64,000 nucleotides of DNA from Archaeoglobales archaeon (GTDB taxonomy: Archaea > Halobacteriota > Archaeoglobi > Archaeoglobales > Archaeoglobaceae), in the NCBI GenBank assembly GCA_011605865.1, contig JAAOZI010000031.1, positions 1-64,000 of the forward strand, written 5' to 3'. The notes under the pieces are model-generated. The model saw nothing but the letters and a program-made list of their open reading frames with translations. It was not told the DNA's origin and did no database searches. Shown here one piece after another: positions 361-60,300 of this stretch (the first letter of the stretch is position 1; every line of letters begins with the position of its first letter). The position numbers and the translations under genes are program-made.

Positions 361-601
361 ATAACCCCAAACTTTTCGAGGGAGGTTTGGAAACCGCTTC
401 AGGACGGAGATTGAGAAGCCTAAATAAATAAAAAATGTAAAAATTGCAGATGCAGGCATGTTGCCCAAGATGAGGCTGCAACATGGCCAATGCCTTAATG
501 AGAGGCATGGGATGGGGAAGCTTGGCTTTAAACCTGCAGATAAAGGAAGCGTAAAGCCCCCTTAACGCCGAAAGCCTTGCTTTAAAGGCGGGGCATCTCA
601 C
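361..601 (+). mobile_element. MITE-like internally deleted TnpB-transposon derivative (copy R1)
   Basis: Left end ATAACC...CTTCAGGACGG...AAGCCTAAATAAATA. Hairpin-rich right end AATGCCTTAATGAGAGGCATGGG...GCTTTAAAGGCGGGGCATCTCAC. Shared with copies at 28.2 kb and 56.5 kb. Confidence 0.75.
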
Positions 602-3439: not shown

Positions 3440-4085
3440 TATTCTTGAAATTTTTAAATTTTTGCGGCTTTTTCTGAATTTTGTCGCTGCAAGAGCAGGG
3501 AGTTTCGGGATTACATCTCCCCTCTTTGGGGGATTTAATCCCCTGGCCGGCCAATTACCCCTATCAATTTCAGGACTCGAGTTATGAGAATGTTGTATGC
3601 AGCTGCCAGATGTGTTGAAAACTTTTTCAGCCTTTAATCTTTTTCCCGCAGCTATCTCCATGTATCTGGCATTTTGGTGAGGTTTTTCCTCGTCAACGAA
3701 GGAAACCGCAGTGCTATATTCCTCAGCAACCTCATAGATTTTCCTGAGCAGGTAGCCATATGTCCAAACATGGACGTTGCTGAAGTTCCCCACTTTTCAT
3801 TTTTCTGAGCTTTTTGATGCTTTCAGGCCATATTTGTTCAGCGTAGACTGGTATTCTGCAAATCCTTTTTCCCCAGCTTCAGCTTCTTTTCAGCATTCTT
3901 ATCAATGAAAGCTCCAATGCTAGTCCTCTTCATCTTTGCCTCCCAGTTTTTTGTTCGGAGAGCATAAGACAAATACAGAGGTTCAATCAGCATCTTTATG
4001 GTTGGTTCTTCAGGACAACCCTAGAGGACAATCATAACAAACTTTTCCATCATCCCGCCCTGAAGGGTGGGACTTTCAGTTGTAA
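3440..4085 (-). pseudogene. Degraded TnpB (IS1341/IS605-type) remnant (copy R2)
   Basis: Minus strand contains SYALRTKNWEAK (TnpB N-terminal-like) and NVHVWTYGYLLRKIYEVAEEYSTAVSFVDEE (C-terminal half), with the centre deleted. A terminal CCCACCCTTCAGGGCGGG palindrome lies near 4060. Confidence 0.7.
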
Positions 4086-4129
4086 ACTGAATGCAAAAAC
4101 TTAAATTTTCTTGTATTTTTTCGAGTCAC

Positions 4130-13151: not shown

Positions 13152-13280
13152 CTTAAGTGAGCTGCTCCATGGCTAAAGCCGGGAGCTTCCAGCGTTTAGC
13201 TGGGGCTTTACGCCTCCAGCCTCATCTGCTATTTAAGTTTTGCCCATTCATCCAGAGCTAAAGCTCTGGGTTTTCTGTGC
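13152..13280 (-). repeat. Divergent TnpB-transposon right-end remnant (copy R4)
   Basis: Read on minus: CCAGAGCTTTAGCTCTGG...GCAGATGAGGCTGGAGGCGTAAAGCCCCAGC...GGCTTTAGCC...CTCACTTAAG. Same hairpin order as R5 with different stem sequences. Confidence 0.6.
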
Positions 13281-28170: not shown

Positions 28171-28242
28171 TGGACTCGCCGGGATTTGAACCCGGGGCCT
28201 CCGCCTCGCGAAGGCGGCGCTCTACCGCTGAGCTACGAGCCC
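28171..28242 (-). tRNA. tRNA-Ala (anticodon CGC)
   Basis: Minus strand GGGCTCGTAGCTCAGCGGTAGAGCGCCGCCTTCGCGAGGCGGAGGCCCCGGGTTCAAATCCCGGCGAGTCCA folds into a full cloverleaf. Loop TTCGCGA gives CGC; no encoded CCA. Confidence 0.97.
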
Positions 28243-28244
28243 TT

Positions 28245-28457
28245 AAGTGAGTACCCCGCCTTTAAAGGCGAGGCTTCCGGCGTTAAGGGAGGGCTTTATG
28301 CCCTTCCCTCATCTGCCGGTTCAAAAGCCAAGCTCCCCTATCCCATGCCCCTCGCTAAGGCATGGGCTATGTTTATGCATGTTTGGACATTCTATTCAGA
28401 CTTTCTATTTATTTAAGCTTTTTCATCCCCGCCCTGAAGGACGAGGTTTTCGGTTAT
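28245..28457 (-). mobile_element. MITE-like TnpB-transposon derivative adjacent to the tRNA-Ala 5' end (copy R5)
   Basis: Minus strand ATAACCGAAAACCTCGTCCTTCAGGGCGGGGATGAAAAAGCTTAAATAAATAG...GCATAAACATAGCCCATGCCTTAGCGAGGGGCATGGG...CCGGCAGATGAGGGAAGGGCATAAAGCCCTCCCTTAACGCCGG...CCTCGCCTTTAAAGGCGGGGTACTCAC. Confidence 0.8.
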
Positions 28458-56422: not shown

Positions 56423-56458
56423 GGTTAACCCTCTGTGTTAGAGTTTTTATATTTAATT

Positions 56459-56742
56459 ATAACCGAAAATCTGCCCCTCGGGATTGGATGAGAAAAAGCC
56501 TAAATAAATAAACATGTAGAAATTAACAGATGCCGGGCATGTTGCCCAAGTCAATGGAAGGGGGATTCAGATGCCCGAGATGCGGGCTTATATATAATAG
56601 GGATTTAAATGCGTGCATAAACATAGCCCATGCCTTAGCGAGAGGCATGGGGGGAGCTTGGCTTTGAACCGGCAGATGAGGGAAGGGCATAAAGCCCTCC
56701 CTTAACGCTGGAAGCCTCGCCTTTAAAGGCGGGGCAGCCCAC
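56459..56742 (+). mobile_element. MITE-like TnpB-transposon derivative retaining the TnpB zinc-ribbon 3' end (copy R7)
   Basis: Same left end as R5/R1. Contains in-frame MPGMLPKSMEGGFRCPRCGLIYNRDLNACINIAHALARGMGGAWL* (56530 onward), then the three-hairpin right end. Confidence 0.82.
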
Positions 56743-56792
56743 TTTTTGGCATGAAGAGGAAAAATTTTTAAAAAGAGTAGAAACATGCTCTT

Positions 56793-60071: not shown

Positions 60072-60170
60072 ACATAGCCCCCTTAACAGAGGCATGGGGG
60101 AGCGGGCTTTTGAACCGGCAGATAAAGGAAGCGTAAAGCCCTTAACGCTGAAGCCTTTCAAGGCAAAGCG
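60072..60170 (+). repeat. Truncated TnpB-transposon right-end remnant (copy R8)
   Basis: ACATAGCCC..AGAGGCATGGGGGAGCGGGCTTTTGAACCGGCAGATAAAGGAAGCGTAAAGCCCTTAACGCTGAAGCC; lacks the left end and terminal hairpin. Confidence 0.65.
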
Positions 60171-60300
60171 CGGATAAACGCTTAAGAAGTGTTCAACTTC
60201 CTCTTCTAGTGCGTATCTTCTCTTGAACTCTTCCTTGCTTTCTATCGCTTTTGTATCCATTCATTCGCTAGAACTATCTTTGCACCGTTCATGGCTAAGG
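60160..60300 (-). pseudogene. Truncated ORF remnants next to R8, unknown family
   Basis: MDTKAIESKEEFKRRYALEEEVEHFLSVYPRFALK runs into the repeat; upstream MNGAKIVLANEWIQKR*. Confidence 0.35.

Follow-up and report, generated by a model that had tools for sequence, protein, structure and literature searches.

tnpB-less IS200/IS605-type elements with a conserved, omegaRNA-like right end in an Archaeoglobales genome

Results

Three tnpB-less elements in the window

The window, the whole stretch of 64,000 nucleotides analyzed here, belongs to the draft genome of a heat-loving Archaeoglobi archaeon (contig C31; 1.27 Mb in all, 84% complete) and contains three elements, R1, R5 and R7, that are with near certainty structured IS200/IS605-type elements without tnpB. 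R7 is a 282-bp element at positions 56461 to 56742 on the plus strand, recognized by its ends, by a covariance-model match and by its absence from the corresponding site in the congener G005. R5 is 209 bp in length (28247 to 28455, minus strand), and R1 (363 to 601, plus strand) is a decayed copy. The first-pass annotation had reported three tnpB-less copies at these places, with a left end and a three-hairpin 3' region common to all, and this description stands; the exact left starts required correction, to 56461 for R7, to 28455 on the minus strand for R5 and to 363 for R1, and the right limit of R5 is now placed at 28247. A minimal copy with a second left-end type (CCAGAGCTTTAGCTCTGG) is located at 13157 to 13277 on the minus strand and retains hairpins 2 and 3 while having lost hairpin 1, and a degraded right-end copy lies on the plus strand at approximately 60072 to 60171. 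Also in the window, at 4040 to 4086 on the minus strand, is a lone palindrome (AACTGAAAGTCCCACCCTTCAGGGCGGGATG) from the left end of a related element of IS605 type. A scan of the window against Rfam at gathering scores returned tRNA only.

The left boundary of the elements reads TTAT|AACC. Among the 18 copies whose left end can be read, 16 have TTAT directly before the element, and no position upstream of this tetranucleotide is strongly conserved when left ends are compared. TTAT is assigned to the target, and the element begins with AACC. At the left flank of R7 this target or TAM-like sequence occupies 56457 to 56460 on the plus strand, and it has a parallel in S. islandicus, where elements with a solo tnpB have TTTAT at the left end (PMC10640517). 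At the other end, the previously proposed terminus YYCAC holds, being CTCAC at 60 of 74 right ends, and the base that follows CTCAC is not conserved among the 74. Insertion may accordingly take place 3' of TTAT, with no conservation in the right flank; relatives are too diverged to supply a base-exact empty site. In G005 the same two genes that neighbor R7 enclose a 97-bp gap from which the element is absent, the intergenic sequence being too diverged to align base by base, and R7 is also absent from the matching place in a second congener, G006.

Subterminal palindromes are present at the left and right ends of many copies and terminal inverted repeats are lacking, as in the IS200/IS605 family. 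Because terminal inverted repeats are absent, the label MITE given to these elements earlier is replaced here by palindrome-associated transposable element (PATE). A left-end hairpin and a right-end hairpin are the usual pair of IS200/IS605 end palindromes. The left-end palindrome, CCTCGTCCTTCAGGGCGGGG, which was missing from the first-pass annotation, is clear in R5 (28427 to 28446, minus strand) and partly decayed in R7.

Within R7, all on the plus strand, a conserved box, AAAGCYTAAATAAATA, with the appearance of a BRE/TATA promoter is found at 56495 to 56510, followed at 56566 to 56664 by what is left of the C-terminal part of tnpB, zinc ribbon and RuvC-III, with a frameshift upstream. Hairpin 1 (CCCATGCC/GGCATGGG) occupies 56627 to 56651, within the former end of tnpB. 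It had been described as lying in a preserved tnpB end; the stretch CPRCGLIYNRDLNACINIAHALARGMG is indeed open in one frame, but the remnant as a whole is frameshifted and non-coding. Hairpin 2, which has an outer stem (CCGGC/GCTGG) and an inner stem, extends from 56669 to 56711, and hairpin 3 (56715 to 56734), supported by the pairing test and by compensatory types among right ends, is the right-end palindrome and as such serves the transposase as well as any RNA. The flanking DNA directly after CCCAC (56743 to 56762) is the putative guide of R7, by analogy with known omegaRNA anatomy. R5 stops 4 nt upstream of the tRNA-Ala(CGC) gene, in a region at 28171 to 28246 on the minus strand, and has thereby cut this tRNA off from its former upstream sequence; the putative guide of R5 (28227 to 28246, minus strand) would cover the first 16 nt of the tRNA.

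Spread of tnpB-less copies in two genomes

A covariance model built from 19 right ends matches 47 places in the source genome and 83 in G006 (apparently Archaeoglobi archaeon WYZ-LMO2) and has no match in eight other congeners of the same genus, a distribution that indicates lineage-specific spread. About 14 copies in G006 possess one identical internal deletion, which joins a tnpB 5' remnant to the scaffold, and have different flanks; another internal deletion is common to five copies of the source genome, including R1. The tnpB-less copies have therefore spread. The earlier proposal that such elements are mobilized is supported by internal deletions with an identical junction, which recur at many independent sites in each of the two genomes. 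This is the behavior of PATEs, which have no transposase gene and are mobilized in trans. The same deletion junction occurs with two left-end types and with two hairpin-1 types, and these mosaics show that copies recombine. Copies without hairpin 1 also exist, one such deletion being common to two loci (C29:733 and C10:1606), so that mobility does not need hairpin 1. The tnpB 5' remnant of one G006 lineage (L159-L162 and relatives) can form a small hairpin, TTCCC...GGGAA, which also occurs in a compensated form, TTCCT...AGGAA.

A full-length tnpB and a candidate transposase

A search of the source genome (G000) for tnpB yielded 18 matches, among them a single full-length copy at C19:8916-9995 and one truncated where its contig stops, a count taken from a draft that is broken at many tnpB copies; further full-length copies may be hidden at contig ends. 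A related full-length TnpB, which had been supposed to exist elsewhere in the genome, is thus present. Two CxxC pairs and the residues D153, E244 and D327 are present in the C19 protein, which has a match to the Pfam Cas12f1-like TNB domain and, by sequence comparison, resembles solved TnpB and Cas12f structures. Its reading frame covers hairpin 1 and extends into hairpin 2, and the three-hairpin scaffold that closes the element is the one found in the tnpB-less copies. This overlap, together with the covariation described below, constitutes a conserved structure at the tnpB 3' end of a full-length element, as is characteristic of omegaRNA. A tnpA-bearing element of a congener opens with the same left-end palindrome, AACCGAAAG, indicating that a TnpA that might act on these ends is present in that genus. 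IS200-type TnpA proteins usually carry an HUH motif; an apparently intact Y1 transposase gene of G000 (C20:14923-15273, L088) reads PDHVNL, with HVN at the expected HUH site, a point that counts against the reading favored in the Discussion.

Pairing of the three hairpins is maintained in tnpB-less copies

In an alignment restricted to tnpB-less copies, the three right-end hairpins noted in the first-pass annotation are preserved with compensatory changes. Among 36 such copies 91% of pairs form, against 38-45% in slid controls, and 144 cells of the alignment are double (compensatory) changes, against 9-31 in the controls; two alleles of hairpin 1 have been exchanged as blocks between copies, with a few broken hybrids, and independent events are therefore fewer than the double-change counts suggest. 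When 75 copies of both genomes are taken together, 92% of pairs form, compared with 40-47% when partners are slid by 1-3 columns. For hairpin 1 of the tnpB-less copies the figure is 93%, with double changes at six of its eight pairs. Predicted folding z-scores relative to shuffled sequences are -5.2 for R7, -5.6 for R5 and only -1.4 for R1, which is accordingly read as decayed.

The scaffold ends at YYCAC and the sequences beyond it differ among copies, the layout of an omegaRNA followed by its putative guide. Nearly all tnpB-less copies carry, about 40 nt from the left end, the box AAAGCTTAAATA, with two mismatches at most in its core. The box resembles an archaeal BRE/TATA promoter and may function as one; the promoter scan that was used is bacterial and unsuited to an archaeon.

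HgcC as a possible omegaRNA family

HgcC (Rfam RF00062) is said to have been first described in M. jannaschii as an RNA of unknown function. Its model aligns over its full length with the scaffolds of R5 (20.4 bits) and of the C19 element (20.0 bits), neither score being significant, and membership of R5 and R7 in HgcC was rejected, about 20 bits standing against a gathering score of 50 bits. A second IS605-type end in the source genome, terminating in GGTCAG, scores 32 bits (E 2.5e-4). Near-identical ends of a second IS605 family, ending GGAGGTCAG, lie near contig ends of G000 (C13:324, C38:274 and C3:45404), which suggests collapsed recent copies.

HgcC matches with an E-value of 0.001 or better occur in 39 of 149 genomes of the phylum, often in several copies. 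Of 30 loci examined, 15 have a same-strand tnpB reading frame that terminates at the match or within it, and none has one on the opposite strand; the tnpB-associated matches fall below the gathering score. The HgcC loci of the four best-scoring genomes, which all exceed it, have no adjoining tnpB, and several of the top-scoring copies possess two palindromes and a BRE/TATA-like box. Matches in G031, G076 and other genomes (L186-L191, L216-L222 and L229-L235) fall either at tnpB 3' ends or in tnpB-less two-palindrome elements with a BRE/TATA-like box. The G031 copies lie at independent sites with differing flanks, and in them the HgcC RNA follows a left palindrome and a BRE/TATA-like box and precedes a right palindrome that terminates in GGTCAG. 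At the tnpB-bearing locus L235 of G076, the tnpB 3' end is matched by HgcC with E 5.5e-4 and by the haloarchaeal omegaRNA family sot0042 with E 2e-8. Three other loci of G076 (L232, L233 and L234) are identical in their upstream sequence and scaffold and retain a short piece of tnpB, each with a 3' flank of its own; they are a recent burst of a tnpB-less HgcC-like element.

HgcC thus looks like an omegaRNA family whose members are often solo. Given that its tnpB-linked matches score below the gathering threshold, this reading rests on their position and on the shared right-end structure. In relatives, HgcC resembles the R5/R7 type in being multicopy, in having palindromes at both ends and in the BRE/TATA-like box that precedes the RNA. 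It differs from that type in its right-end sequence, GGAGGTCAG, and in its first stem, and it represents a separate element family.

Discussion

The first-pass annotation had proposed that copies such as R7 might be solo omegaRNA genes mobilized or used in trans. Two of the three outcomes named there as refuting it, lack of a related full-length TnpB and loss of the stems in a proper alignment, did not occur. We consider it probable that R1, R5 and R7 are PATEs that contain a solo omegaRNA; TnpA would move them and TnpB might load the RNA, both acting in trans, with the flanking DNA as guide. Judged from sequence, use of the solo omegaRNA by a TnpB in trans is likely. The elements would be non-autonomous IS200/IS605 (IS1341-like) derivatives that lost tnpB through internal deletion and retained a compact unit of left-end palindrome, promoter-like box, structured omegaRNA scaffold and right-end palindrome. 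Their mobility most likely depends on a TnpA that acts in trans on the ends they share. Transcription of the unit probably begins independently at the box and continues into the flanking DNA, which would yield an omegaRNA with the 3' flank as guide. TnpB made by the full-length copy could load this solo omegaRNA and would then cut the element-free site (TTAT plus flank), favoring retention of the element.

The most serious alternative, which we regard as unlikely but by no means negligible, is that these are plain PATEs in which the scaffold is a passive leftover: TnpA would move the copies by means of the two palindromes, and the hairpins would persist because the copies are young and recombine. 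Lineages with shared deletions and the mosaic copies are in keeping with this explanation, as is the interpretation given in 2011 to the PATEs of Haloquadratum (PMC3119063). Purifying selection on primary sequence was not seen in the congener lineage, in which the tnpB 5' remnant differs by 0.137 and the scaffold by 0.184. The remnant is no more diverged than the scaffold, and constraint is consequently seen on pairing only. As this neighboring segment shows no excess divergence and copies lacking hairpin 1 have spread as well, selection on the scaffold is not fully separable from hitch-hiking. A passive leftover, however, does not readily account for hairpin 1, the stems of which are the most diverged part of the scaffold (mean pairwise difference 0.296, congener lineage) and nonetheless still pair, or for the joint retention of the promoter-like box and the scaffold across different deletions.

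A third explanation, that the solo copies are small RNAs used by the host or cis regulators of the adjoining gene, for example by guiding TnpB to bind rather than to cut, appears improbable. R5 separates a tRNA gene from its upstream sequence at a distance of 4 nt, and P. abyssi sRkB has been proposed to regulate its neighbor (PMC3124441), both of which would suit such a role; yet insertion sites look lineage-specific, R7 being absent from the matching place in G005 and G006, and the choice of target is explained by TTAT. Least probable of all is that the hairpins, rather than forming an RNA scaffold, act as transcription terminators or as DNA structures used by the transposase. Hairpin 3 does coincide with the right-end palindrome, and T-rich DNA after certain hairpins gives them the look of terminators; hairpins 1 and 2, however, covary, are located well internal to the right end and, in the full-length element, are situated within or just past the tnpB coding end in the manner of an omegaRNA.

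If TnpB loads the solo scaffolds, one TnpB gene would serve dozens of guide genes at different sites. Such a multi-guide system would have arisen naturally, from transposition alone, and would permit a direct test of TnpB-based retention in trans. Many unlabelled archaeal repeats would then become guide-RNA genes, and a function would be suggested for HgcC. We give slightly less than an even chance to the broader proposition that a class of archaeal transposons consists of little more than a promoter and an omegaRNA, supplies guides to TnpB made elsewhere and so secures its retention without coding for protein, HgcC being one such solo omegaRNA. The link between HgcC and tnpB-less omegaRNAs is the part most worth following first.

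The kind of element described here is known, as both PATEs and expressed tnpB-less RNAs of the TnpB 3' end have already been published for archaea. For IscB and TnpB elements, solo omegaRNAs or PATEs are reportedly treated in Altae-Tran 2021 and Meers 2023. The PATEs of Haloquadratum walsbyi are tnpB-less IS605 derivatives with palindromes at their ends, some of which arose by deletion of the core (PMC3119063). The elements of the present genome resemble them in each of these respects, in the near-terminal position of the palindromes and in outnumbering full-length elements; the target duplication that the H. walsbyi elements lack may be absent here too. The present elements differ from those of H. 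walsbyi, to the extent that the latter are described, in the retention of a structured RNA scaffold that covaries in tnpB-less copies.

The omegaRNA of TnpB is produced by TnpB from the tnpB mRNA itself, and the right-end hairpin is the only feature common to almost all scaffolds (PMC10278001). Like these RNAs and the haloarchaeal sotRNAs (RF02656/RF02657), the scaffold described here is positioned at the tnpB 3' end and comprises several hairpins, with the right-end palindrome near the scaffold end and a putative guide taken from the flank; RF02656 itself matches the full-length C19 locus weakly and non-significantly (19.7 bits). Unlike the omegaRNA of IS200/IS605 TnpB elements, those of R1, R5 and R7 have no tnpB in cis.

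In P. abyssi, the RNAs sRkB, sRkC, sRk48 and sRk52 derive from repeated, transcribed loci that resemble the 3' end of orphan OrfB genes; the expressed loci have their own promoters, the 5' ends are processed, and the 3' ends of sRkB lie in the adjoining gene (PMC3124441). These are the features to be expected of a solo omegaRNA that takes its guide from the flank, a reinterpretation of a study that predates the omegaRNA concept. The elements described here share with sRkB/sRkC and sRk48/sRk52 the match to the 3' end of OrfB (TnpB), mostly without the gene, and the conserved hairpins. For the P. abyssi RNAs expression, promoters and L7Ae binding have been demonstrated, whereas the present elements are known from sequence, and the likeness is one of kind. 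In kind, sRkB, sRkC, sRk48 and sRk52 are the closest known counterparts of the tnpB-less elements of this genome.
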